Assembly (NCBI RefSeq): GCF_020832045.1
Contig: NZ_JAFIFK010000050.1
Span: 62,001 to 126,000, forward strand
DNA: 64,000 nt
DNA from: Halomonas sp.
GTDB lineage: Bacteria > Pseudomonadota > Gammaproteobacteria > Pseudomonadales > Halomonadaceae
Direction of reading: 5' to 3'
This document shows positions 25,246 to 44,457 of this stretch, one piece after another; positions within the stretch are counted from its first letter, which is position 1, and every line of letters starts with the position of its first letter. The notes beneath the pieces are model-generated. The model saw only the letters and a program-made list of their open reading frames with translations, was not told the DNA's origin and searched no databases. The position numbers and the translations under genes were made by a program.

Positions 25246-25471
25246 GAAGGACGCCTTATCTCAACAAGAGCCAGGAAATCATGAATTTATGAAGACTTGA
25301 CATAGGTTAGTGCTTTTCCTGTCCAACAAAGCTAGCCTTAATAGTCTATAACTATGCAAATAAGAGACATCGCTTCCTCCGGTCAGTAAAAGGTCAAGGA
25401 TACGGCTCCTACCGGAAAGATTGCTGTGTATAGCATTGTCTGGCCATGCCAAAACAGGGAGGGTTGTCATC

Positions 25472-27088
25472 ATGGGCAATGTGGCACTGAAGGGCATCGG
25501 CTCCGATGCCGTCGTGGTCCGTCGAAGTCGTACGATCACATCACCGCTGGCTGATCTCACGCTCGACGATGCCCTCCGAACCAGGCGGGACTTGGCTCCT
25601 CCCAAGCGGGAAGACGATGGCTCACATCCATCGCAACGGGTGCTGTTCGTTACCCCCGAAATTGCGGATTTCGTCAAGGTGGGCGGGCTTGGAGACGTTT
25701 CCTCGGCACTTCCTCGAGCGCTGGCTTGCCATCACGATATTCGCATCCTCATTCCAGGCTACCGAGAGGTGCGCCACTCGGGGCTCGATCTCCGCCGCGT
25801 CGGCCAGCTCCCGGCCCACGCCGAACTGCCGGCCTGTGAGATAGGCGAGCTTACCTGTGCCGATGGCATGGTGATCTACGTACTGCTCTGCCCAGAGCTG
25901 TATGAGCGTGAAGGCGGCCCTTATGGTACCGGACCGGGTGGCTACGGCGGAAACGGCTGGGATGACAACGACATACGCTTTGCCAGGCTGTCGCTGGCTG
26001 CTGCCGAGATCGCTGCCGGGCGCGCCGGGCTCGACTGGCAGCCGCAGCTCCTGCACCTCAACGACTGGGCATGCGGCCTGGCACCCGCCTATCTGCACTG
26101 GTGGAAGATCAACGTTCCCAGCGTATACACCATCCACAATCTGGCCTACCAGGGGCTCTACGATAGAAGCCGCTGCACGGCCCTGGGAGTTCCCGAGAGC
26201 GCCTTCCACATCGAGGGGGTCGAGTACTACGGCAAGCTCTCGTTCATGAAGGCCGGGATCGTTTACGCCTCGCACGTCACCACGGTCAGCGCGACCTATG
26301 CCCAGGAAATCACGACGCCGGAGTTCGGCTGTGGCCTGGACGGCCTGCTGCGCTGCAAGGCGGAGCAAGGCAAGCTCAGCGGTATTCCCAACGGCATCGA
26401 CGACTCCTGGGACCCGCGCACCGACGCCCATCTGGTACAGGCCTTCTCGGCCAATGATTGGCGAGGCAAGCGTGCCAATGCCGACTATGTTCGCCATCGC
26501 TTCGGTCTGGCCCCCAGCGCGGGACCGCTGTTCGCCATGATTTCGCGCATGGTGCACCAGAAAGGGGTCGACCTGGTCATCGAGGCGGCCCCGAGCATCA
26601 TCCAGGCGGGTGGGCAGATAGTCTTCATGGGCAGCGGCGAACGTCGTGTCGAAGCGCAGTTGGACCGCCTGGCCGAACGTTATCCGGGCGCCATCGGCAC
26701 CTATATCGGCTTTGCAGAAGATGAGGCCCGCTGCATCTACGCCGGTAGCGACTTCCTGCTGATGCCGTCGCGTTTCGAGCCCTGCGGACTCAGTCAGATG
26801 TATGCCCAGCGCTTCGGTTCGCTGCCCATTGCGCACCGTACCGGTGGACTCGCCGATACCATCGAGGACGGTATCACCGGCTTCCTGTTCGATGGGGTCA
26901 GACTATCGAGCTTCATGCAGTCGGTTCAGCAGGCCTTTTCGGTCTATCACTCCACCGAGCTGTTCTATGCCATGCGACGCGCCGCCATGACCGGACGTTA
27001 TCACTGGCGCCAGTCGATCGCTCCCTACACGCAGCTCTATCAGCAGGCTTGCGCTGCGACAGGCTTGGAGGCACGAGCAGCAGGATGA
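25472..27088 (+). CDS. glgA: Glycogen/starch synthase
   Basis: VLFVTPEIADFVKVGGLGDVSSALPRAL; HLNDWACGLAPAYLHWW; GLFDGL-type region EFGCGLDGLLR; FLLMPSRFEPCGLSQMYAQRFGSLPIAHRTGGLADTIEDG. Likely start MGNVALKG. Confidence 0.93.
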   Translation: MGNVALKGIGSDAVVVRRSRTITSPLADLTLDDALRTRRDLAPPKREDDGSHPSQRVLFVTPEIADFVKVGGLGDVSSALPRALACHHDIRILIPGYREVRHSGLDLRRVGQLPAHAELPACEIGELTCADGMVIYVLLCPELYEREGGPYGTGPGGYGGNGWDDNDIRFARLSLAAAEIAAGRAGLDWQPQLLHLNDWACGLAPAYLHWWKINVPSVYTIHNLAYQGLYDRSRCTALGVPESAFHIEGVEYYGKLSFMKAGIVYASHVTTVSATYAQEITTPEFGCGLDGLLRCKAEQGKLSGIPNGIDDSWDPRTDAHLVQAFSANDWRGKRANADYVRHRFGLAPSAGPLFAMISRMVHQKGVDLVIEAAPSIIQAGGQIVFMGSGERRVEAQLDRLAERYPGAIGTYIGFAEDEARCIYAGSDFLLMPSRFEPCGLSQMYAQRFGSLPIAHRTGGLADTIEDGITGFLFDGVRLSSFMQSVQQAFSVYHSTELFYAMRRAAMTGRYHWRQSIAPYTQLYQQACAATGLEARAAG

Positions 27089-28899
27089 ACGAAGCGCAGC
27101 GTTTCCAATACGGTTTCGGCGCACAGGTCCTGGGGCCGCAATGGACAAGCTTTTCGCTCTGGGCGCCGAGCGCCAACCGGGTCGACCTGGAGGTGGAAGG
27201 CTTGAAGCCCCTCGCCATGACCCATGCCGGCGAGGGCCGCTTCATCGGTGAGGCACGCTGCGACCATGGCGCCCGCTACCGTTACCGCGTTTACCTCGAC
27301 GATGCGCCCGAGGGCATTTCGGTGCCCGACCCCGCCGCCCGCGCCCAAGCGGGCGGCATCGACGGTCCGAGCTTGGTGATCGACCCCTACCAGCACCCCT
27401 GGCGGCATGCCGGCTGGCGAGGCCGGCCCTGGCATGAAACCGTGCTCTACGAGCTCCACCTGGGCGCCCTGGGCGGACTGGCAGGGGCGCGTGAACTGCT
27501 GCCCTACCTGGCCGAACTAGGCGTTACGGCAGTCGAGCTGATGCCGGTGGCAGCGTTTCCGGGAAAGCGCAACTGGGGCTACGACGGCGTGCTTCCCTAC
27601 GCCGTGGATGAAACCTACGGCGACCCGGATGCGCTCAAGGCCTTCATCGACGATGCTCACGGCCTCGGCCTGATGGTATTCCTCGATGTGGTCTACAACC
27701 ACTTCGGCCCTGACGGTAACTATTTACCACTCTACGCCAAGACTTTCTTCCGACACGACCGCGAAACACCCTGGGGTCCGGCCATCGACTTCCGCCACCC
27801 CATGGTGCGCCGTTTCTTCATTGAAAATGCGCTGATGTGGATCGATGAATACCGCCTCGACGGGCTGCGGCTGGATGCGGTACACGCCATTGGTGAGCGC
27901 GACTTTCTCATCGAACTGGCCGAGACGCTGCACAGCCACCTCGATTCCCAGCGCCACCTCCACCTGGTGCTGGAGAACGAGCACAACGATGCCCAGCTGA
28001 TTGGCCCCGGCCGCTTCACCGCGCAGTGGAACGACGATTGGCACAACGTGATGCACGTACTGCTGACCGGAGAGCGAGAAGGCTATTACAGCGATTTCAC
28101 CGACGATACGATCCACAAGCTGGTGCGCTGCCTCAGCGAAGGCTTCATTTACCAAGGCGATACCACCCGCAGCGGCACACCACGCGGTACACCTAGCGGC
28201 CATCTGCCACCCCAGGCCTTCGTGGCCTTCCTGCAGAACCACGATCAGGTGGGAAATCGCGCCCTGGGGGAGCGCCTGTCCCGGCTCGTCGAACCCCCGG
28301 CGCTCGAGGCCGCCACACTGCTACTGCTGCTCTCGCCCATGGTGCCGCTGCTCTTCATGGGCGAGGAGTGGGCCAGCCGGCAGCCTTTCCTGTTTTTCAC
28401 CGACCATCGCGACGAACTCGCCGAAGCCGTGCGCGAGGGTCGCCGCGCCGAGTTCGCCGCGTTCAGCACCTTCAGCGATCCGGCCAGCCGAGAGGCCATC
28501 CCCGATCCCAATGACGCCGCCACTTTCGAGGCTTCTCGGCCCGACTTGGAGGCTCGCGATACCCCACCTCATGCCGACTGGTTGGGCTTCGTTCGTCATC
28601 TTCTGAAGATTCGCCATGCCGAGGTCGTGCCACGGCTGGACGGCGCCAAGCCGCTGAGCGCCGAAGCACTGGGAGAATCTGCCTTCGTTGCCCGCTGGCT
28701 GATGAACGATGACACCCAACTGGTCATAGCTGTGAATCTGAGCGAACAACCGATCGCCACCTGCGCCTTCGGCATCGGAAGATGCCTGTACGAGACCCGC
28801 GCCGGCGTTGCGGTTGCCACCGAGAGCGGCAACCTTCCAGCCTGCTGCGCAGCCGCCTGGCTGAGACCGGGACCCGGGGACGAGGAGCTTAGCGCATGA
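27085..28899 (+). CDS. treZ: Malto-oligosyltrehalose trehalohydrolase
   Basis: FGAQVLGPQWTSFSLWAPSANRVDLEV; VLYELHLGALG; VELMPVAAFPGKRNWGYDGVLPYAVDETYGDPDALKAFIDDAHGLGLMVFLDVVYNHFGPDGNYL; ENEHNDAQL. ATGA overlap with glgA. Confidence 0.95.
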   Translation: MNEAQRFQYGFGAQVLGPQWTSFSLWAPSANRVDLEVEGLKPLAMTHAGEGRFIGEARCDHGARYRYRVYLDDAPEGISVPDPAARAQAGGIDGPSLVIDPYQHPWRHAGWRGRPWHETVLYELHLGALGGLAGARELLPYLAELGVTAVELMPVAAFPGKRNWGYDGVLPYAVDETYGDPDALKAFIDDAHGLGLMVFLDVVYNHFGPDGNYLPLYAKTFFRHDRETPWGPAIDFRHPMVRRFFIENALMWIDEYRLDGLRLDAVHAIGERDFLIELAETLHSHLDSQRHLHLVLENEHNDAQLIGPGRFTAQWNDDWHNVMHVLLTGEREGYYSDFTDDTIHKLVRCLSEGFIYQGDTTRSGTPRGTPSGHLPPQAFVAFLQNHDQVGNRALGERLSRLVEPPALEAATLLLLLSPMVPLLFMGEEWASRQPFLFFTDHRDELAEAVREGRRAEFAAFSTFSDPASREAIPDPNDAATFEASRPDLEARDTPPHADWLGFVRHLLKIRHAEVVPRLDGAKPLSAEALGESAFVARWLMNDDTQLVIAVNLSEQPIATCAFGIGRCLYETRAGVAVATESGNLPACCAAAWLRPGPGDEELSA

Positions 28900-31010
28900 G
28901 CGAAAAACGATTGGACGCGCTGGCCGACGCCGCCGGCCTGATCAGTGAATGGGAGGACAGCGAGGGCAATCTCTGTCGGCTCGACCCTGCCACTCGTCGC
29001 GAGCTGCTGTCATGCCTAGGCTATCCGGCCGAGAGCGACAGGGAGATCGCTGCCAGTCTGGAGCGCCTGCGCGGCCCTGCGTCACCGTCAGAGTGGCCGC
29101 CATTGATCACCGCCGAACAAGGACAGAGTACCCCCCTGCCATCGTCGCTGCCGCCAGGGACTCGTTACGTACTGACGCTTGAAGAGGGCAAACGAGACGA
29201 AGGCGTGCTGGACGCTCAGGGCGCGCTGCCGGGTGTTGCCACCACCGGCTACCATCGTCTGAGCATCGCAGAAGTCGACATTACCCTGGCCGTAGCGCCA
29301 ACACGCTGTTTCACCGTCGCCGACGCTTGCGGCAGCGAGACACCGCGGCTATGGGGCCTGACCGCCCAGCTCTATGCCCTGCGCCGTCTAGGCGACGACG
29401 GCATCGGCGACACCCTGGCGCTGGAGCGGCTGGTTCGACATGCCGCCGAAGCCGGCGCAGCGGCCGTGGCCATCAGCCCCGTGCACGCCATGTTCAGTGC
29501 CGATGTGACGCGCTTCAGCCCCTACGCGCCCTCCAGCCGCCTGCTCTACAACGTCCTGCACGCGTCGCCGGAAGCCCTGCTCGGCGAAGAGGCAGTCAAG
29601 CACGCCAAGGAGATAAGCGGCGTGAATGGCGACCTGCCGCGGCTCGAAGCGGATCCCCTACTCGACTGGCCTGCCACGGCCAGCGCCAAGCTGACCTGGC
29701 TACGCGCCTTATGGGACGACCTCATGCACCGTGAGGACGCACAGGCGCACAGCATCCGCCAGGCCCTATCGGCGTTTCGCGAAGACGGCGGCTCGACGCT
29801 CGAACTTCACTGCCGCTTCGAGGCACTGCAGCAGCGGCTCGGCATACTCGACTGGCGACAGTGGCCGCAGGAGCTGCGTGACCCGGCAGGCCAGGAAGTG
29901 GCTCGCTTCGCCGAGGTGGATTCTCGCGACGTCGAGTATCACGCTTTCCTGCAGTGGCTGGTCAGCGAAGGGCTGGCCCACGCTCAGGCGTCGGCCCGAG
30001 AAGCCGGTATGCCCATTGGCTTGATGTCCGACCTCGCGGTAGGCGCCGATGCGGCCGGCAGTCAGGCCTGGAGCCGCCAGGAGGAGATGCTCGAGGGGCT
30101 TTCGATCGGCGCACCACCGGACACCTTCAATGTGCACGGCCAGGACTGGGGGCTCGCCCCCTTCTCGCCCCAAGGGCTGGTGCGATCGGGCTTTCGAAGC
30201 TTCATCGACATGCTGCGAGCCGGCTTCGCCCATGCCGGTGGGCTACGCATCGACCATGTGCTGGGACTCATGCGCCTGTGGCTGATACCGCATGGCAATG
30301 CGCCCAACGAAGGCGGTTACGTGCGCTACCCGCTCGACGATCTGTTACGGCTGGTCGCACTGGAATCATGGCGTCATCGCGCCATCGTCATCGGTGAGGA
30401 CCTGGGCACCGTAGCGCCCGGCTTTCGTCGGCAGCTGGCGCGGCGCGGCATCCTCGGCATAAGTGTGCTGTGGTTCGAACGCGACGACGAGGGCAACTTC
30501 CTGGCCCCAGCGCAGTGGTCGAAGGATGCCATTGCCACCAGCACGACCCATGACCTGCCCACACTGGCAGGCTGGTGGGTGGGCCGCGATATCGAATGGC
30601 GCAGCCACCTCGGCCTGCTTGGAGAAGGGCAGGACGCCGAAAGCGAGCACGCCGAACGCCGGGTTGCGCGTGCCCGCCTGGCCGACGCTCTCGGCCTGAC
30701 CGACCCCCAGCATCATCCCGAGGTATTGGATGCCAACGAACTGCCGGCCTCGCAGGTACTGGACGCCTGCATCCGGCACCTGGGTCTGACGCCCGCTCCT
30801 CTCGTGCTACTACCGGTGGAAGATGCTCTGGGCCTGGAGGAGCAGGCCAACTTGCCGGGTACCATCAAAGAGCACCCCAACTGGCGCCGACGCCTGCCCG
30901 ATGCCAGCGCGCGGCTGTTCGCCTCCACCGAAGTACGACACCGCATGGAGCAGCTGGTCGAGGCCCGCCAGAAAGCGAATAGCGTACAGGAGGGCAGCGC
31001 CGATGAGTGA
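28896..31010 (+). CDS. malQ: 4-alpha-glucanotransferase
   Basis: RLWGLTAQLYALRRLGDDGIGDTLALERLVRHAAEAGAAAVAISPVHAMF; GLRIDHVLGLMRLWLIPHGN; VIGEDLGTV; STTHDLPTLAGWW. Confidence 0.94.
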   Translation: MSEKRLDALADAAGLISEWEDSEGNLCRLDPATRRELLSCLGYPAESDREIAASLERLRGPASPSEWPPLITAEQGQSTPLPSSLPPGTRYVLTLEEGKRDEGVLDAQGALPGVATTGYHRLSIAEVDITLAVAPTRCFTVADACGSETPRLWGLTAQLYALRRLGDDGIGDTLALERLVRHAAEAGAAAVAISPVHAMFSADVTRFSPYAPSSRLLYNVLHASPEALLGEEAVKHAKEISGVNGDLPRLEADPLLDWPATASAKLTWLRALWDDLMHREDAQAHSIRQALSAFREDGGSTLELHCRFEALQQRLGILDWRQWPQELRDPAGQEVARFAEVDSRDVEYHAFLQWLVSEGLAHAQASAREAGMPIGLMSDLAVGADAAGSQAWSRQEEMLEGLSIGAPPDTFNVHGQDWGLAPFSPQGLVRSGFRSFIDMLRAGFAHAGGLRIDHVLGLMRLWLIPHGNAPNEGGYVRYPLDDLLRLVALESWRHRAIVIGEDLGTVAPGFRRQLARRGILGISVLWFERDDEGNFLAPAQWSKDAIATSTTHDLPTLAGWWVGRDIEWRSHLGLLGEGQDAESEHAERRVARARLADALGLTDPQHHPEVLDANELPASQVLDACIRHLGLTPAPLVLLPVEDALGLEEQANLPGTIKEHPNWRRRLPDASARLFASTEVRHRMEQLVEARQKANSVQEGSADE

Positions 31011-33795
31011 CATCCGTGCCACCGTGCGCCTGCAGTTCCATCGCGGCTTCACCTTGGACGATGCCTGCGAGTGCGTCGACTACTACGCCCGGCTCGGTAT
31101 CAGCCATGTCTATGCCTCACCGCTGCAGGTGTCGCGCAGCGACTCACCTCACGGCTACGACGGCATCGATCCTACCCGTATCGACCCCGAGCTCGGCGGT
31201 GAAGAGGCCCTGGAGCGGCTGGTCTATCGCCTGAGCTCCCACGACATGGGCCTGATCCTCGATATCGTTCCCAACCATGTGGCCGTAGGCGGCTCGCAGA
31301 ACCCTTGGTGGCAGGACGTGCTGGCATGGGGGCAGCAAAGCCCCTTCGCCGGTTTCTTCGATATCGACTGGCACGTCCCCGACCCCACCCTGGCCGGCAA
31401 GGTGCTACTACCCTTCCTTGGTGGCCCCTATGCCGATGCGCTGCAAGGGGGTGAGCTGGCGTTGCGCCACGAGGCCGAAACGACACGCTTCCAGGTCGTT
31501 TATCACGAACACCGCTACCCCATCGACCCTCGCCGCTATGGCGACATTCTGCGCCTTGCCGAGCATGAGACGTTATGGGACCTGGCGCCGCGTTTCGACG
31601 CCCTGCGCCAGCGCGACGACGCCTATACCGCCGTGACCGAGAGCCGCGATGCCCTGCGCCAGGCCCTTTCGGACCGCACCGCCAGCCAGGCACTGGAACA
31701 CGCCCTCAGCCTCTTCGACGGCAAAACGCGCGGCGGCGCCATTCGGCTGCACGACCTGCTTGAGCAACAGCATTATCGATTGGCCTGGTGGCGCAGTGGG
31801 GCCGACGAAATCAATTGGCGACGCTTCTTCGACATTACCGAGCTCGGTGGGCTGCGCATCGAGCAGCCTGAGGTGTTCGAGGCCGTACATGCGCTGCCGC
31901 TGCGCCTGGTGGAGCAGGGCTGGGTCGACGGCCTGCGCATCGACCATATCGACGGTCTGGCCGACCCGCGCGGCTACTGTCGTCGGTTGCGCACCCGCCT
32001 GGATGAGGTCCAGCAGCGGCGCCCGCCGGACGCGGTACGCCACGTGCCGATCTTCGTCGAGAAGATCCTGGCCGCCGAGGAGACACTGCATGGCGACTGG
32101 GGAGTCGAAGGCACCACCGGCTACGAGGTGATGAACGCGATTTCCGCTCTGCAGCACGACCCAGCCGGCGCCGAGCCGCTGCGTAACCTGTGGCAAGATG
32201 TCACCCACCGCAGCGCCGATTTCCTCTTCGAGGCTCGCCTGGCTCGTCGCGAGGTGCTCGCCAGCCTGCTGGCAAGCGAGTTCGAGGCGTGCGCCCGCGC
32301 CCTGCACGCCGTGGCCCGCCACGCGTTGGCAACTCGGGATATCACCCTGGCGTCGGTACGTCGGTCGCTTGAAGCACTGATCGTGCACTTCCCGGTCTAT
32401 CGGACCTATGCCGATGACGGTGGCCGCCCGGAACTCGACGCGCCCTTTTTCGACGAGGCCATGGCTGGCGCCCGGGATGAGCTGAGTCCGCCCGATACCG
32501 AAGTGCTGGAGTGGCTGCAGCGCTGGCTGGGCGGCGAGGCACCCTGCGATGTCGAAGATGCCGAGGAGCGCTGGCTGCGCCAGCGGGCCATCGTTCGCTT
32601 CCAGCAGCTCACCTCGCCGGTAGCCGCCAAGGCCGTGGAAGATACCGCTGGCTATCGTAGCGCGGCGCTGATTTCGCGTAACGACGTCGGCTTCGACGGC
32701 GAGCACTTCAGCCATACGCCACGCCAGTTTCACGATGCCAACGTCTGGCGAAGTCGCCACTTCCCACACGGCCTGGTTGCTACCGCCACCCATGACCACA
32801 AGCGTGGCGAGGACGTGCGGGCGCGGCTGGCTGCATTGAGCGAGAACGCCGGTGGCTTAGCCAGCCGAATCGCTCACTGGCGCGAGCTCGCCGCTCCACT
32901 GCGCCAGACGCAAGCGGCGGGGCCCGCCCCCAGCCCCGGCGACGAGCTGATTCTCTATCAACTCCTGCTTGGTGCCTGGCCGCCAGCCCTCCAGAGTCAC
33001 GATGAGGACGGCATACGTACGTTTGCCGAGCGAGTGGCCAAATGGCAGCAGAAGGCACTGCGCGAAGCCAAACTGCGCACTCACTGGCTGTGGCCCGACG
33101 ACGCCTACGAGGCCGCCTGCCGCGATTACCTGATGGGGATCCTGACCACGCCCGAGCTGTGCCGCGAGATCGAGGCGGCGGCCCGCGAACTCGATCTGCC
33201 AGGTGCGCTCAACGGCCTGGTCCAGACGACACTGCGCCTGACCGTACCCGGTGTGCCGGATCTTTACCAAGGCTGCGAATTCTGGGACTACAGCCTGGTC
33301 GACCCCGACAACCGGCGCCCTGTCGACCATGACGTGCGTCGGCACTCACTCGAAGCCGACAAGGAGCTCGCTGCAGCGCTGGCGGATTGGCAAGACGGTA
33401 CTGTCAAGCAGACGCTGATCGCACGCTTGCTGGCCCTGCGCCAGCAGCGGCGCGAGCTTTTCCTGGATGGGAATTACCACCCTCTGGCGGTCGAGTGCGG
33501 ACAGGGCGACAGGCTGGTCGCCTTCTTGCGTAGCCACGCTGACCAGCAGCTGATGGTTGTCGTACCACGTCTAACCGCACGACTCCTGCTGGATGCCGAT
33601 CGTCCCCATGTGGTGCCATCACAGTGGGGTAATACCGCCATCTGCCTCCCCACGGAAGCAATGGGCGTTTGGCAAAACGCACTGACCGGTACCATCCTGA
33701 ACGTATTGGAATCGCCTGTTGCCGCCGGTGAACTGCTGAACGATTTTTCCGTCGGCATCTATCTACGTAACCCGCAAGGGCAAAGGGAGAGCTAG
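31003..33795 (+). CDS. treY: Malto-oligosyltrehalose synthase
   Basis: ATVRLQFHRGFTLDDACECVDYYARLGISHVYASPLQVSRSDSPHGYDGIDPTRIDPELGGEEALERLV; GLRIDHIDGLADPRGYCRRLR; TATHDHKRGEDVRARLAALSE; PGVPDLYQGCEFWDYSLVDPDNRRPVD. Start at 31003 (MSDIRATVRL). Confidence 0.96.
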   Translation: MSDIRATVRLQFHRGFTLDDACECVDYYARLGISHVYASPLQVSRSDSPHGYDGIDPTRIDPELGGEEALERLVYRLSSHDMGLILDIVPNHVAVGGSQNPWWQDVLAWGQQSPFAGFFDIDWHVPDPTLAGKVLLPFLGGPYADALQGGELALRHEAETTRFQVVYHEHRYPIDPRRYGDILRLAEHETLWDLAPRFDALRQRDDAYTAVTESRDALRQALSDRTASQALEHALSLFDGKTRGGAIRLHDLLEQQHYRLAWWRSGADEINWRRFFDITELGGLRIEQPEVFEAVHALPLRLVEQGWVDGLRIDHIDGLADPRGYCRRLRTRLDEVQQRRPPDAVRHVPIFVEKILAAEETLHGDWGVEGTTGYEVMNAISALQHDPAGAEPLRNLWQDVTHRSADFLFEARLARREVLASLLASEFEACARALHAVARHALATRDITLASVRRSLEALIVHFPVYRTYADDGGRPELDAPFFDEAMAGARDELSPPDTEVLEWLQRWLGGEAPCDVEDAEERWLRQRAIVRFQQLTSPVAAKAVEDTAGYRSAALISRNDVGFDGEHFSHTPRQFHDANVWRSRHFPHGLVATATHDHKRGEDVRARLAALSENAGGLASRIAHWRELAAPLRQTQAAGPAPSPGDELILYQLLLGAWPPALQSHDEDGIRTFAERVAKWQQKALREAKLRTHWLWPDDAYEAACRDYLMGILTTPELCREIEAAARELDLPGALNGLVQTTLRLTVPGVPDLYQGCEFWDYSLVDPDNRRPVDHDVRRHSLEADKELAAALADWQDGTVKQTLIARLLALRQQRRELFLDGNYHPLAVECGQGDRLVAFLRSHADQQLMVVVPRLTARLLLDADRPHVVPSQWGNTAICLPTEAMGVWQNALTGTILNVLESPVAAGELLNDFSVGIYLRNPQGQRES

Positions 33796-33796
33796 G

Positions 33797-34522
33797 ATGG
33801 CTGACGAAGAGCGCATACGGAATCTCGCCTACGAAATATGGGAATCGGAAGGCCGCCCCGAAGGCCAACAACAGCGGCATTGGGACATGGCATTGAAGAT
33901 CGTCGCCGCTGAACAGGCAGCAGGCATGGATGCCGAACTCGAGGAGCTGGGCGAACCGGTAGAGGAGACTCCCATCTTCGAGGACGATCTGCCACTGGAG
34001 GACGACGAGGTAGGCATCCAGGAGAACCGGCTACCGCTCGACCCACCCGATGGCAGGGTCGACTTCGACGAGCTGCCTTATCGTGACGACCATGACGTGG
34101 CCCAGGACGTGCCGGTACAGGACCGTGGCAGCCCTGGGTCTACGACAACGGACAGCGTACCCACCGCCGCATCGCGCAGCCCGCTACCGGCCGAAGAGGC
34201 CACGAGCAGCGGTGCTCAGAATCAGGACATCGCCAATCGCGGAGGGCCGGACACCGCGCCGAGCTCACCGGACCCCGGGCCTGGCCCGATGGAGCCGCTG
34301 CCAGCGGAGTCGGCAACGGCCAAGCGAAAACGCAAGCCGCGCCGCGCCGACGATGGCCTGAGTCAGCCTGACGGCACCGACACCTCTCAGGTACCGGGAA
34401 AGACCGCCAAGTCCGCCGGCAGCAAGCGCAGCGCCAAGGCAGGCGACAGCGGCAAAGCGGCCAAGACGTCGTCCACCACCAAGGCGAAGAAATCACCGAG
34501 CCGCAAGAAGCCCAAGGAATGA
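33797..34522 (+). CDS. DUF2934 domain-containing protein with long disordered acidic middle and basic Lys/Ser/Ala-rich tail
   Basis: N-terminus MADEERIRNLAYEIWESEGRPEGQQQRHWDMALKIVAAEQ (DUF2934 pattern). Tail AKRKRKPRRADDGLSQPDGTDTSQVPGKTAKSAGSKRSAKAGDSGKAAKTSSTTKAKKSPSRKKPKE. Sits 1 nt after treY. Confidence 0.88.
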   Translation: MADEERIRNLAYEIWESEGRPEGQQQRHWDMALKIVAAEQAAGMDAELEELGEPVEETPIFEDDLPLEDDEVGIQENRLPLDPPDGRVDFDELPYRDDHDVAQDVPVQDRGSPGSTTTDSVPTAASRSPLPAEEATSSGAQNQDIANRGGPDTAPSSPDPGPGPMEPLPAESATAKRKRKPRRADDGLSQPDGTDTSQVPGKTAKSAGSKRSAKAGDSGKAAKTSSTTKAKKSPSRKKPKE

Positions 34523-34564
34523 ACGACACCTGGTAAGACGCCCACCGCTTCATGGATGAGAACG

Positions 34565-36772
<2,208 letters not shown>

Positions 36773-36824
36773 AGCCGCCACGTCCCGAGCGGTGGCAGGA
36801 AGAACGAGAGACAAGGAGTCCGAA

Positions 36825-38852
36825 ATGAGTTCACCTGCGTTGACAATTCCAAGGGTCGATCAGCTGCAAGAGCCGTTTCCGAGCGATGTCTCGGCCGCTG
36901 CTCATGCCCCTCGTATCGCCATCGAGGACGTGCATCCATCGCTAGATCACGGTCGTTTCGCCGCCAAAACCATCGTCGACGAACCTGTCATCGTCAAGGC
37001 GACGATATTCGCCGATGGTCACGACGTTCTGGCCGCCGCCATTTGCTGGCACGACGATTTAGGGGCGCAAAAGCGGGAACCCATGGAGGCAGTCCTCCCC
37101 CCCGGACGCGATCTCTACCAAGGGTGCTTCACGCCTTCCAGAGTGGGGAGACACGGTTTTTACATCGAGGCCTGGTGGGACATCTACGGCACTTATCACA
37201 GCGAGCTTTCCAAGAAATATCGGGCGGGCGTGCCGGTCGGCCTCGAGCTCGAAGAGGGACGGCTGTTAGTCACTCAGGCCATGGAGCGCAGCGAAGGTGA
37301 GCTGAGAGAAGCGCTGGCCGCCCTGCATGAAAAGTATCAGCAGCTCGAGCTCGATGCCGATCGAGTTGCGCTGCTGTTGGACAACAGCACGGTAAAGCTG
37401 ATGGAGGCCGCGGATTCACGCCCGCATCTGGTACGCAGCGACGCTTGCTACGGCGTCGAAGTAGAGCGCCTCAGGGCGCGTTACTCGAGCTGGTACGAGC
37501 TGTTCCCGCGCTCGGAAACCGACAGTCCGCATCGCCACGGTACCTTCCGTGACGTGCACGCACGCCTCCCCCTGATTCGCGACATGGGTTTCGATGTTCT
37601 CTATTTCCCGCCTATTCATCCCATCGGTCGCACACATCGCAAGGGACCCAACAACTCACTTGAAGCAGGGCCGGACGACCCCGGCAGTCCTTACGCCATC
37701 GGTAGCGAGGAGGGTGGTCATGAAGCGATACATCCGGAGCTTGGCACACGAGACGATTTCCGCGATCTGGTACGCGCTGCAGCCGATCATGGCTTGGAAA
37801 TCGCGCTGGACTTCGCCATCCAGTGCTCGCCCGACCACCCCTGGCTCGACGAGCACCCCGGTTGGTTCTCATGGCGCCCCGACGGGTCTATCCGCTACGC
37901 AGAGAATCCGCCCAAGAAGTATCAGGACATCGTCAACGTCGATTTTTATGCCGCGGACGCGGTCCCTTCGCTCTGGATCGAGCTTCGCGACATCGTTCAG
38001 GGCTGGGTCGACGAAGGCGTAAAGATCTTCCGCGTCGACAACCCCCATACCAAGCCGCTGCCTTTCTGGGAGTGGCTGATTGCCGATATTCGAGGTCGCG
38101 ACCCAGCGGTAATTTTTCTTGCCGAGGCCTTCACGCGGCCGGCGATGATGCTGCGACTTGGCAAGCTGGGCTTCAATCAGAGCTATACCTATTTCACTTG
38201 GCGCCATACCAAACAGGAGCTGACCGAGTACTTCACCCAGCTCAACGAATCACCGCTGCGCGAAGGCTACCGCCCCAACTTCTTCGTCAACACGCCCGAC
38301 ATCAACCCCTACTTCCTGCAGTCTTCGGGAAGACCCGGCTTTCTGCAACGAGCGGCCCTGGCGGCTCTCGGGGCCGGTTCCTGGGGGGTGTATTCAGGCT
38401 TCGAGCTGTGCGAGGGGGAACCGGTGCCGGGCAAGGAGGAGTATCTCGATTCGGAGAAGTACGAGATTCGCCCGCGTATCTATACCTCCCCCGGCAACAT
38501 CACCTATGAGATAGCGCAGCTCAACCGCATTCGACGGGAGAACCCGGCACTGCAGACCCACCTGGGCGTGTCCTTCTACACGGTGCACAACGAGAGGATT
38601 CTCCTTTTCGGCAAGCGTACCGAAGCACAGGACAATTTCATCCTCGCCGCGATCAACCTTGATCCGTTCGAGGCTCAGGAGGGGGTGTTCGAACTACCGC
38701 TGTGGGAGTTCGGGTTGCCCGACGACGCCACCTTGCAGGGAGAGGACCTGATGAATGGGCAACGCTGGACGTGGCACGGCAAGTGGCAATCGCTACGACT
38801 CGAGCCGTGGCATATGCCCTTCGCCATTTGGCGTATTCGCCCGGTTCACTAG
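36825..38852 (+). CDS. glgE: Alpha-1,4-glucan:maltose-1-phosphate maltosyltransferase
   Basis: RIAIEDVHPSLDHGRFAAKTIVDEPVIVKATIFADGHDVLAAAICW; DVLYFPPIHPIGRTHRKGPNNSLEAGPDDPGSPYAIGS; VKIFRVDNPHTKPLPFWEWLIADIR (GlgE signature). Confidence 0.96.
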   Translation: MSSPALTIPRVDQLQEPFPSDVSAAAHAPRIAIEDVHPSLDHGRFAAKTIVDEPVIVKATIFADGHDVLAAAICWHDDLGAQKREPMEAVLPPGRDLYQGCFTPSRVGRHGFYIEAWWDIYGTYHSELSKKYRAGVPVGLELEEGRLLVTQAMERSEGELREALAALHEKYQQLELDADRVALLLDNSTVKLMEAADSRPHLVRSDACYGVEVERLRARYSSWYELFPRSETDSPHRHGTFRDVHARLPLIRDMGFDVLYFPPIHPIGRTHRKGPNNSLEAGPDDPGSPYAIGSEEGGHEAIHPELGTRDDFRDLVRAAADHGLEIALDFAIQCSPDHPWLDEHPGWFSWRPDGSIRYAENPPKKYQDIVNVDFYAADAVPSLWIELRDIVQGWVDEGVKIFRVDNPHTKPLPFWEWLIADIRGRDPAVIFLAEAFTRPAMMLRLGKLGFNQSYTYFTWRHTKQELTEYFTQLNESPLREGYRPNFFVNTPDINPYFLQSSGRPGFLQRAALAALGAGSWGVYSGFELCEGEPVPGKEEYLDSEKYEIRPRIYTSPGNITYEIAQLNRIRRENPALQTHLGVSFYTVHNERILLFGKRTEAQDNFILAAINLDPFEAQEGVFELPLWEFGLPDDATLQGEDLMNGQRWTWHGKWQSLRLEPWHMPFAIWRIRPVH

Positions 38853-38891
38853 CAGAGTGGTGCGTACCTAACCCCCAAGGAGGGCAAGACC

Positions 38892-41800
38892 ATGATGGAT
38901 GCCAGCAGCGAATCCCACGCCGTCGAGACCCTCGATTTCCTCGACGACCCCCTCTGGTACAAGGACGCCGTGATCTATCAGGTGCACGTCAAGTCCTTCT
39001 TCGACGCCAACGACGACGGTATCGGCGATTTCAAGGGGCTGATCGAAAAGCTCGATTACATCGTCAGCCTCGGTGTGAATACCATTTGGGTACTGCCGTT
39101 CTACCCATCGCCACGACGCGACGATGGCTACGACATCGCCGAATACACCAGCGTCAGCCCGGACTACGGCACCATGGAGGATGCCCGACACTTCATCGAA
39201 GAGGCACATCGTCGGGGATTGCGGGTGCTCACGGAGCTGGTCATCAACCATACGTCCGACCAGCATGAATGGTTCCAGCGCGCTCGCCGATCGCCGCCCG
39301 GCTCGCCGGAGCGAGACTTCTACGTATGGTCCGACACTGACCTCAAGTATCCCGGCACCCGCATCATCTTTCTCGACACCGAAGTATCCAATTGGACATG
39401 GGATCCGCTAGCTGGCGCCTATTATTGGCATCGCTTCTATTCTCACCAGCCCGATCTCAATTTCGATAACCCGCAGGTGCTGGACGAAGTGATCAAGGTC
39501 ATGGAGTACTGGCTCGACATGGGCGTCGACGGCCTGCGCCTGGATGCCATTCCATACCTGGTCGAGCGCGAAGGCACCAACAACGAGAATCTTCCCGAGA
39601 CCCACGAGGTGCTCAAGAAGATTCGCGCGGTAATCGACGATCGTTACCCTGACCGCATGCTGCTCGCCGAGGCCAACCAGTGGCCCGAGGACACCCGCCC
39701 CTACTTCGGCGACGGCGACGAGTGTCATATGGCGTTCCATTTCCCATTGATGCCGCGCATGTACATGGCCCTCGCCCAGGAAGACCGCTTCCCGATCACC
39801 GACATACTGCGACAGACCCCCGAGATACCGGCCAATTGCCAATGGGCCATCTTCCTGCGCAATCACGATGAGCTGACGCTGGAGATGGTCACCGACAAGG
39901 AGCGCGACTACCTCTGGAACCACTACGCCGCCGATCGCCGTGCTCGCATCAACCTCGGAATACGCCGACGCCTGGCGCCGCTGCTCGAGCGCGACCGTCG
40001 TCGTGTCGAGCTGCTCAATAGCCTGCTGCTGTCGATGCCGGGAACACCGGTGCTCTACTATGGCGACGAGATCGGTATGGGCGACAACATCTACCTCGGC
40101 GACCGCGACGGGGTGCGTACCCCCATGCAATGGTCGGTGGATCGCAACGGCGGCTTCTCACGTGCCGACCCGGCAAGCCTCGTGCTGCCGGCGCTCATGG
40201 ACCCCCTCTACGGCTATCAGGCGGTCAACGTCGAATCCCAGCTGCGCGATCCGCATTCGCTACTGAACGCCATGCGGCGCCTGCTCGCGGTGCGCGATCA
40301 GCATCGAGCTTTCAGCCGCGGCACCATGCGGCCACTCTACCCGGCCAATCGCCATATCCTCGCCTACCTCCGCGAAATGACACTCGACAACGGCGAGACG
40401 GAAACACTGCTGTGCGTCGCCAATATGGCGCGAACCGCCCAGGCGGTGGAAGTCGATCTCTCCGCCTTCGCCGGCCAGGTGCCGGTGGAAATGGTCGGTG
40501 GCAGTGCATTTCCGCCGATCGGACGGACGCCGTACCTGCTGACACTGCCTCCTTATGGCTTCTTCTGGTTCCTGCTGGCACCGGAATCCGCCATGCCTGA
40601 ATGGCACGTGCCGGCCCCCGAGCCCATGCCGGAATATGTCACGCTGATCGTCAAAAAACGGCTCGAGGAGATATTCCAAGCCCCGGCGCGCCAGCTGCTC
40701 GAGCGTGAGACCCTACCTAGCTACCTGCCCAAGCGACGCTGGTTCGCCACCAAGCAGGCCCATATCGACCAAGTGCGCATCCTCTACGTTGCCCGGCTGG
40801 AGCACAGCCAGCACGCCATGCTGATCGCCGAGATGGAGGTCCACCATGCCGAGGGCATCGAACGCTACCAACTACCGCTGGCGTTTCTCGGTGAAGAGGA
40901 GCAGACCAGTGCCCTGCCCCAGCAGCTCGCCATGGCACGCGTCCGCCGCTTCCACGAAGTGGGGCTGCTGACCGATGCGCTGACACTGGATGCCTTTGCC
41001 CTGGCGGTTATCGATGCCATGCGACAAGGCCTAAAACTGCCGTGCGGCAGCGGGGAAATTCGCTTCGAGTCTACGCCCTTGCTCACCGCGCTGGAGCTTC
41101 CCGACCCCCTCGAAGTGGAGCAGCTGAGCGCGGAGCAATCCAACAGTTCGGTCATCATCGGCCGCCAACTGGTGCTCAAGCTATTCCGCAAGGTGGCGCC
41201 AGGAATTCACCCCGAAGCTGAGATCGGTCGCTTCCTCACCGAGCGCGGTTTCACCCATATCGCTGCCTTGCTTGGCGAGGTAACCCGCTTCGATGAGCAG
41301 GGAACGCCTCACACGCTGATGGTGATGCAGAGCTTCATCGATAACCAGGGCGATGCCTGGGCCTGGTTTCGAGCCACGCTCGCGCGTGCAGTTCGCGAGG
41401 CCAGAGCCGATCGGGATCAGGGACACGACAAGGCTTTCGAAGAGCCGGGTTATGGCGCCTGCGAGGAGTTGGAGTCTTTCGCCACCACCCTGGGCAAGCG
41501 TTTAGGCGAAATGCATAGCGTATTGGCTTCGCCCAGTGAGGATCCCGCCTTCAGTCCTCAAATTGCTTCGGATACCCAAGTCGAGCAGTGGAAGCAGCGA
41601 GTGCGGGAGCGTGTCGAAGAAGCGCTGGCACTGCTTGAGCAGCATGCAAAACAGTGTGACGAAGCCGAGCGACAGATCATCGAAGGGATCATGGCAAGTC
41701 GTGACTCGCTCACGGCCGCCATCGCTACCATCGCTGGGCTGACCAAAGGCAGCCTGCTGACGCGTATCCACGGCGACCTGCACCTGGGACAGGTGTTGGT

Positions 41801-42242
41801 CGCGCACCACGATGCCTACATCATCGACTTCGAGGGCGAGCCTGACCGCCCGCTGGAAGAGCGTCGCATAAAGGACAGCCCGCTAAGAGACGTGGCGGGC
41901 ATGTTGCGCTCCTTCGACTATGCCTTCACAAGGGTGGATGAGGCTCTTCCCGGTGGCGAGGGCGAAGAGATGCACGACGACAGCGATCACGAGGTGGCGG
42001 AGCGCTGCCTACTGAGCGCTCGCCAGGCCTTCCTCAATGCCTATTGGCATGCCACCCAGGCATTGCCGCACGAATGGCAACAAACGGCCGGCCCGGCCGC
42101 GGCAGTCGATCTGTTCGTTCTGGAAAAGACCGCCTACGAAATCGCCTATGAAATATCCAATCGTCCCGCCTGGCTGAGCGTGCCGCTGCGTGGCCTGGCG
42201 GCGCTAGTCGAGCAATTGGATGAAGGAGAGCCAAATGTCTGA
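38892..42242 (+). CDS. treS: Maltose alpha-D-glucosyltransferase (trehalose synthase) fused to maltokinase (TreS-Pep2)
   Basis: Tre[99 protein letters not shown]-terminal kinase half: [69 protein letters not shown]. Confidence 0.96.
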
Positions 42243-44457
42243 TCTCACCGCCAGGCTTACACCTGATCCGAGCCTGTGGCTGCCCGAGGAGGAAGCTGAG
42301 GCCTTGGCGCGTGGCACCCATGGCGATCCGTTTTCGCTGCTAGGCGTCCATGAACACGACGGGGCTCCCATACTGAGGGTCTTCTTGCCCGGTGCGTTGG
42401 GCGTCGACGTGCTCGACCGAAAGGACGGTAGCTTTCGCTGCTGCCTGACGAGCATGCAGATCCCCGGCCTCTTTGCCGGCCGTCTGCCGTATGCAGCTCC
42501 CTACACCCTGCGCATTCGCTGGTCCAGCGGTGAAGAGAGCACGGAAGACCCCTACAGCTTCGACCTGCTGCTTGGCGAAATGGACCTTTATCTGATCGGC
42601 GAGGGTACGCATCGCTATCTGGGCGACTGTCTCGGCGCTCAGCACATGGCGGTGGAGGGCATCAAGGGGGTTCGTTTTGCCGTGTGGGCTCCCAATGCCC
42701 GGCGTGTCTCGGTGGTAGGCAATTTCAACGGCTGGGATGGGCGCCGCCATGTGATGCGTCTGCGCCATCCCGCTGGCGTCTGGGAGCTGTTCATTCCACG
42801 CATTGGCCCCGGTGAGTCCTACCAATACGAGATCCTCGATGCCCACGGAGCACTGGGCCTGCGGGCCGACCCGGTCGCGCTAGCCACTGAGACGCCACCC
42901 AGCACTGCCTCCGTCGTGGCCGATTCCACGCCCTACCAATGGCACGACGAGGCCTGGCTCGCACAACGCGGCAAGGCGCATGCGCCGAACCGGCCAATCA
43001 GCATTTATGAGGTGCACGCTTCCTCATGGCGGAAGCATGGCGGCGACCATGGCGAACTCTATAGCTGGCGCGAACTGGCCGAACACCTGATTCCCTACGT
43101 GCGGGAAATGGGCTTCACCCACGTTGAACTGCTGCCCATCATGGAACACCCGTTCGGCGGCTCCTGGGGCTACCAGCCGCTAAGCCAATTCGCCCCCAGC
43201 GGGCGCTTCGGCACACCTGCCGACTTCGCTCATTTCGTCGACGAGTGTCATCAGGCAGGACTCGGCGTGGTGCTCGACTGGGTGCCTGCCCACTTCCCCA
43301 CCGACCTCCACGGCCTGGCTCGCTTCGACGGCACAGCGCTGTACGAGTACGAGCACCCCTTCGAGGGCTTCCATCAGGATTGGGACACCTTCATCTATAA
43401 CTGGGGAAGGCGTGAGGTACACGGCTTTCTGCTGGCCTCGGCGCTGCACTGGCTGCGCCACTTTCATGTCGATGCACTACGCGTCGATGCCGTCGCCTCG
43501 ATGCTATATCGCAATTACTCGCGCAACGAGGGTGAGTGGATTCCCAACAAGCACGGCGGACATGAAAACCTGGAAGCGATCGACTTCCTGCGCCACCTCA
43601 ACGATGTTGTCAGCGAGGAAGCTCCCGGCACGCTGGTGATCGCCGAGGAGTCCACCGCCTGGCCCGGCGTTACAAAGCCGACCGCCGAGGGGGGGCTGGG
43701 ATTCGCCTACAAGTGGAACATGGGCTGGATGCACGACACCCTGAGCTTTATCGGTGAGGAACCCATCCATCGCCGATATCACCATCACCACATGACGTTT
43801 CCCATGGTCTACGCTTTTTCGGAGCATTACGTGTTGCCGATCTCCCACGACGAGGTCGTGCACGGCAAGGGATCGCTGATCGGCAAGATGCCTGGCGACG
43901 AGTGGCAGCAGTTCGCCAACCTACGCGCCTACCTCGCCACCATGTGGACCCAGCCCGGCAAGAAGCTGTTGTTCATGGGCTGCGAGTTCGGCCAATGGCG
44001 CGAGTGGAGCCACGATCGTGAACTTGACTGGTTCCTGCTCAGCGAGCCACGTCATTCCGGTGTACGCCAGCTGCTAACCGATCTCAATCACCTATACGTC
44101 GAGCATGCTGCCCTGCATGAATGCGATTCCGACCCTCACGGTTTCACCTGGGTGGTAGGCAACGACGATACCAACAGCGTCTTCGCCTGGCTGCGGTGGA
44201 GTGCTAAGGGAGAACCACTGTTGATCGTAGCCAACATGACGCCGGTTCCGCGCGGTGGCTACCGCTTGGGTGTGCCCCGCCCCGGATTATGGCAGGAGAT
44301 TTTCAACAGCGATGCCGAATGCTATGGCGGCTCGAATGTCGGCAATATGGGCCATCTGGAAGCCGAGGACGCTCCACTTCACGGCCAGACCGCCAGTCTA
44401 TCGATGACACTACCGCCGCTGGCGGTAGTGATATTGCAACCTGCCGAGCCACACTGA
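42235..44457 (+). CDS. glgB: 1,4-alpha-glucan branching enzyme
   Basis: [123 protein letters not shown]. Confidence 0.97.
44408..44430 (+). repeat. Perfect 10-bp inverted repeat in the 3' end of glgB
   Basis: CACTACCGCC-GCT-GGCGGTAGTG. Confidence 0.9.

Follow-up and report, generated by a model that had tools for sequence, protein, structure and literature searches.

A DUF2934 protein encoded between treY and glgX in Halomonadaceae is a probable accessory component of the glucan/trehalose pathway

Results

The window, i.e., the whole stretch of 64,000 nucleotides analyzed here, derives from a Halomonadaceae genome whose closest named relatives are Billgrantia species. It carries a run of glucan and trehalose genes in which an open reading frame for a DUF2934 protein lies between treY and glgX (Table 1). 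The TAG stop codon of treY (33793 to 33795) and the ATG of the DUF2934 gene (33797) are separated by a single nucleotide, as the original prediction had stated, and translation of the DUF2934 gene is likely coupled to that of treY. Rfam returned zero matches across the operon, and promoter and terminator scans around the DUF2934 gene stayed at chance level.

Table 1. Positions in the window of the DUF2934 gene, its parts, and its neighbors
Feature	Coordinates	Strand	Basis
Glucan/trehalose gene run glgA-treZ-malQ-treY-DUF2934-glgX-glgE-treS/mak-glgB	25421-44457	+	Profile matches
treY, maltooligosyltrehalose synthase, upstream neighbor	30823-33795	+	TIGR02401, E 6.8e-276
Probable ribosome-binding site (GGGAG) within the treY 3' end	33785-33789	+	Inferred by reading the sequence
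Whole DUF2934 gene; encodes 241 aa, including an acidic linker and a basic tail	33797-34522	+	Coding status backed by pN/pS
DUF2934 head, aa 3-38, helix-loop-helix, RHWDMA signature	33803-33910	+	PF11154, AlphaFold2, pN/pS
Acidic linker, aa 43-110	33923-34126	+	Charge, pN/pS
GIQENRLPL, aa 73-81, conserved short motif within the acidic linker, candidate docking motif	34013-34039	+	Pattern in family proteins
Pro/Ser/Thr-rich disordered stretch, aa 111-170	34127-34306	+	Low pLDDT, pN/pS
Basic Lys/Ala/Ser tail, histone-H1-like composition, aa 171-241	34307-34519	+	Charge, pN/pS
glgX, glycogen debranching enzyme, downstream neighbor	34556-36772	+	TIGR02100, 1065.6 bits

Two annotation details of the neighboring genes deserve mention. 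Within positions 28896 to 33795, the malQ open reading frame (to 31010) extends 188 nt into the longest treY open reading frame (from 30823). The TreY profile match begins only at residue 64, and the true start of treY therefore probably lies downstream of that of the longest frame. In the relatives G677, G687, G714, and G722, TreY is contained in an open frame of ~1,690 aa, which suggests a MalQ-TreY fusion. GlgX of G722 is spread over two open frames (G722:C24:61131-63202), which may reflect a frameshift or a sequencing error.

The DUF2934 gene is the only one of its kind in the whole genome. Its product matches Pfam DUF2934 (PF11154) at residues 3 to 38 with an E value of 1.4e-13 and 50.7 bits, well above the curated gathering score of 22; Pfam matched nothing else in the protein, NCBIfam nothing at all, and no carbohydrate-binding module was recognizable. 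AlphaFold2 predicts helices at residues 2 to 17 and 25 to 49, with a mean pLDDT above 90 across residues 11 to 40, and has low confidence outside the head, most of the protein being predicted as disordered. Net charge is -4 for residues 1 to 42, -21 for residues 43 to 110, -5 for residues 111 to 170, and +14 for the tail, which has a pI of 10.74. With 12 Lys per 40 residues, the tail stands apart from all other genes among the 43 of the window (at most 5), and the charge of its last 40 residues (+12) is the highest among these window genes, the runner-up having +7. The architecture of a DUF2934 head, a linker, and a basic low-complexity tail had been proposed from the sequence and is borne out by the PF11154 match and the charge profile. 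What had been described as a single acidic/proline-rich linker is in fact bipartite: a conserved, highly acidic section with the GIQENRLPL motif precedes a section rich in Pro, Ser, and Thr. Comparison with eight Billgrantia relatives yielded pN/pS ratios of 0.075 for the head, 0.185 for the acidic linker, 0.39 for the Pro/Ser/Thr-rich stretch, and 0.56 for the tail. Constraint is thus strong on the head and drops stepwise to weak on the tail, a pattern by which we consider the open reading frame a real coding gene.

We surveyed 121 genomes of the family, counting TreY and GlgX above profile cut-offs. DUF2934 was present in 44 of them, exactly those that possess TreY, and in none of the 77 genomes without treY (Fisher P 5e-34, a descriptive figure, as it ignores shared ancestry). 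In all 44, the DUF2934 gene directly follows treY in the same orientation, its head encoded 36 to 396 nt past the TreY match. GlgX was found in 46 genomes, and the two of these that lack TreY (G625 and G693) also lack DUF2934. The association, for which a neighborhood survey had been proposed as a check, is therefore not random. Among the 39 distinct family proteins, 28 contain the pattern G[IV]x[EQ]xRLPL in the linker and the remaining 11 do not; no motif of the GIQENRLPL type was seen in the proteins of f21, presumably the Pseudomonadaceae. The last 40 residues carry a charge of at least +4 in 37 of the 39. Within Halomonadaceae, composition and charge of the tail are kept while its sequence drifts.

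DUF2934 also fills the treY-glgX gap in two families of the same order (f21 and f45) and in one of the same class (f52). The head signature RHWxMA was detected in 38 of the 39 Halomonadaceae proteins, the exception having RHWDRA, at all seven f21 and f45 loci, and at three further loci (L106, L109, and L110), and was absent from all other sampled DUF2934 proteins. These heads seem to represent a single subtype that moves together with the treY-glgX block, and the window protein shares both its gap position and its signature. The arrangement is not universal, as other treY-bearing genomes of the phylum, such as G019 of the same order, lack DUF2934. In genome G095, a second DUF2934 gene (loci L110 and L016) is located ~8.7 kb from the treY-linked copy, across the operon from it and close to glgA.

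The original prediction had placed a DUF2934-type protein in the same gap in Pseudomonas. This position proved right: in P. aeruginosa, PA2161 falls between PA2162 (treY) and PA2160 (glgX) (PMC8084333), in P. syringae, PSPTO3129 occupies the interval from treY to glgX (PMC8982409), and the f21 genomes have DUF2934 in this slot, by analogy with which we infer that both gene products are DUF2934 members. PA2161 was among the responding genes in P. aeruginosa arrays, as were PA2159 and further members of the cluster (PMC7685553, PMC3224232), and a growth screen included a PA2161 transposon mutant among many others. The genes tested in PMC8084333 did not include PA2161, and PSPTO3129 was removed only in a six-gene deletion that took out the whole operon (PMC8982409). 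Our literature search found only such bulk data and no study dedicated to either gene; DUF2934 was merely listed or named there, with no function given, and the search returned nothing relevant on a link between glycogen and the nucleoid.

Outside the order, 73 genomes bearing DUF2934 were considered, with 129 sites among the stronger matches listed. Twelve of these sites lie within ~5 kb of GlgX, versus 0.31 expected under uniform placement, related genomes not being independent. They span seven families, namely, f52, f59, f76, f79, f90, f100, and f116, and in an eighth, f84, a DUF2934 gene encoding a basic tail precedes a glgE run, with glgX ~9 kb further on. Gene orders vary: DUF2934 sits between GlgX-MalQ and glgA/glgB in f79, after glgB-GlgX-MalQ in f76, directly before glgX in f100, after glgX in f59, before glgB-glgX in f116, and beside glgA with glgX nearby in f90. 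Basic tails are present in f79, f100, and an f76 example downstream of malQ. Except for f52, the glucan-linked heads outside the order lack RHWxMA, and this looks like repeated recruitment of DUF2934 into glucan operons. As a family, DUF2934 is not glucan specific, since most copies elsewhere sit in scattered contexts. A Pfam survey of the genes adjoining unlinked copies pointed to no prevailing partner, with no family accounting for more than 6 of the 131 genes; these neighbors include signaling and stress-type genes, e.g., those for manganese catalase, LigD, and what is, judged from its sequence, a YciE-type (ferritin-like) protein. Loci L097 and L113 encode a different DUF2934 type (AAYYIAERRGF and similar), in which the Lys/Ala-rich stretch is N terminal rather than C terminal.

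A basic tail was found in 8 of 13 glucan-linked and 13 of 31 unlinked DUF2934 proteins (Fisher P 0.33), and we rejected the tail as a mark of glucan-linked copies because this difference is not significant. Tail-less glucan-linked members occur in f52 (56 aa), f59, one f76 genome, one f90 genome, and, within Halomonadaceae, in G695 (L080), whose natural 60-aa protein has a stop codon overlapping the estimated glgX start. Judged by these comparisons, it is the head that is constant, with the tail being an addition to it, and the head has to be explained first. When the predicted head was compared with PDB folds, the best E value was 4.9, which is chance level; sequence searches of the PDB, run with the protein as well as with a head profile of ten rows, likewise produced chance-level matches only. 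No head fused to a glucan enzyme was seen among the long frames checked. Two candidates were discarded. In G553, a frame of 673 aa is open by accident on the strand opposite a large dehydrogenase-like gene; in G417, a long frame combines DUF2934 with nothing but disordered sequence.

Discussion

Here, we describe a DUF2934 gene that is real, has a head under strong constraint, and is passed on with treY and glgX, between which it lies. On these grounds, the notion that its product serves the glucan/trehalose pathway as a dedicated accessory protein is well supported, and we hold it with good confidence. The original prediction of a conserved accessory role is thereby upheld as far as the gene neighborhood is concerned. 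The histone-H1-like tail is neither specific to nor universal in glucan-linked DUF2934 proteins.

How such a protein might act is a more tentative matter. Based on gene position and head constraint, the two-helix head may dock on the pathway machinery, most likely GlgX or TreY. Where present, the disordered basic tail might bind a polyanion, most likely nucleoid DNA, as suggested by its composition and by the precedents of AlgP and PhaF, whose H1-like tails have been implicated in the spacing of polyphosphate and polyhydroxyalkanoate (PHA) granules, respectively (PMC9239181). Glucan enzymes or glucan particles would then be anchored to the nucleoid by the protein, in a manner comparable to that of PhaF with PHA and of AlgP with polyphosphate granules. 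We favor this combination of docking and tethering among the mechanisms considered, while regarding it as rather less than an even bet. It is consistent with the linkage to treY in 44 of 44 genomes, the occupation of the same gap in f21, f45, and f52, the 12 of 129 sites near GlgX versus 0.31 expected, the persistence of tail composition in 37 of 39 proteins despite sequence drift, the AlgP/PhaF precedent (PMC9239181), and the array response of PA2161 alongside PA2159 and cluster genes (PMC7685553, PMC3224232). Against it stand the lack of a head-enzyme fusion among the long frames checked and of a solved or fold relative, the location of most DUF2934 genes elsewhere away from glucan genes, and the finding that basic tails are about as common away from glgX. 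Moreover, since tail-less glucan-linked members exist, tethering cannot be the shared core function.

Comparison with known systems delimits the analogy. A small head and a Lys/Ala/Pro tail are common in the DUF2934 family (PF11154); compared with DUF2934 at large, the treY-linked members form an RHWxMA subtype fixed at one operon position, the slot that PA2161 and PSPTO3129 occupy in Pseudomonas, and most Halomonadaceae members add the acidic linker with its conserved motif. PhaF, a PHA granule phasin, resembles the window protein in its Lys/Ala-rich disordered C-terminal tail and its storage-polymer gene context. However, the window protein has no phasin domain, with Phasin (PF05597) matching neither this protein nor anything else in the genome, and the polymer of the pathway is glucan. 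AlgP shares a helical N-terminal part and a disordered H1-like tail (PMC9239181), but has a head of 124 aa and regular KPAA repeats, whereas the window protein has a head of ~44 aa and a short tail of Lys/Ala/Ser/Thr-rich composition without a regular KPAA-type repeat.

Two close rivals of the docking-and-tethering explanation place the weight elsewhere. In one, which we consider possible but doubtful, the DUF2934 protein would regulate or stabilize GlgX, or a GlgX-TreY pair, as a subunit, with its head binding the enzyme and tuning debranching or passing linear chains to TreY and its tail serving as a solubility or spacing element with no role at DNA. The constancy of the head alone (pN/pS 0.075), the persistence of tail-less versions beside glgX, and the recurrence of the GlgX neighborhood across several families fit this idea. 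Yet many GlgX enzymes are encoded without DUF2934 next door, DUF2934 lies far from glgX in many genomes, and a subunit would not need the tail charge that 37 of the 39 family proteins retain. The second rival, to our judgment a shade more doubtful, dispenses with enzyme contact altogether and envisages a general stress or desiccation protein, disordered and charged, that is made with trehalose from an operon induced by stress and protects macromolecules. The predicted disorder of most of the protein, the stress-type genes for manganese catalase, LigD, and the YciE-type protein beside other DUF2934 genes, and the role of the treY-glgX pathway in osmotic and desiccation survival (PMC8084333) are in line with it, but placement at treY/glgX in 44 of 44 genomes and absence from the 77 treY-less ones are tighter than is usual for coregulation alone. 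A nucleic acid-binding regulator coupling transcription or mRNA fate to glucan status, to which the basic tail and the multiple basic-tailed DUF2934 copies of other genomes could point, is improbable given an acidic head (-4) that matches no DNA-binding fold, a tail without conserved sequence, and tail-less linked versions.

Returning to docking and tethering, it is tempting to go one step further and speculate that bacterial alpha-glucan has a nucleoid tether of its own, with the DUF2934 head on GlgX or TreY and the H1-like tail on DNA, and that this tether entered glucan operons on more than one occasion. We consider this possible but doubtful; if true, PhaF and AlgP would have a counterpart that positions glucan.

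The GlgE and TreY-TreZ pathways have been studied for their part in osmotic and desiccation survival, and their enzyme sets have been treated as complete. A gene kept in all sampled treY-bearing genomes of the family, and an unstudied Pseudomonas gene in the same slot, suggest that a part of the pathway may have been missed. DUF2934, a widespread family without known function, also gains a pathway in which it can be tested by single-gene deletion.
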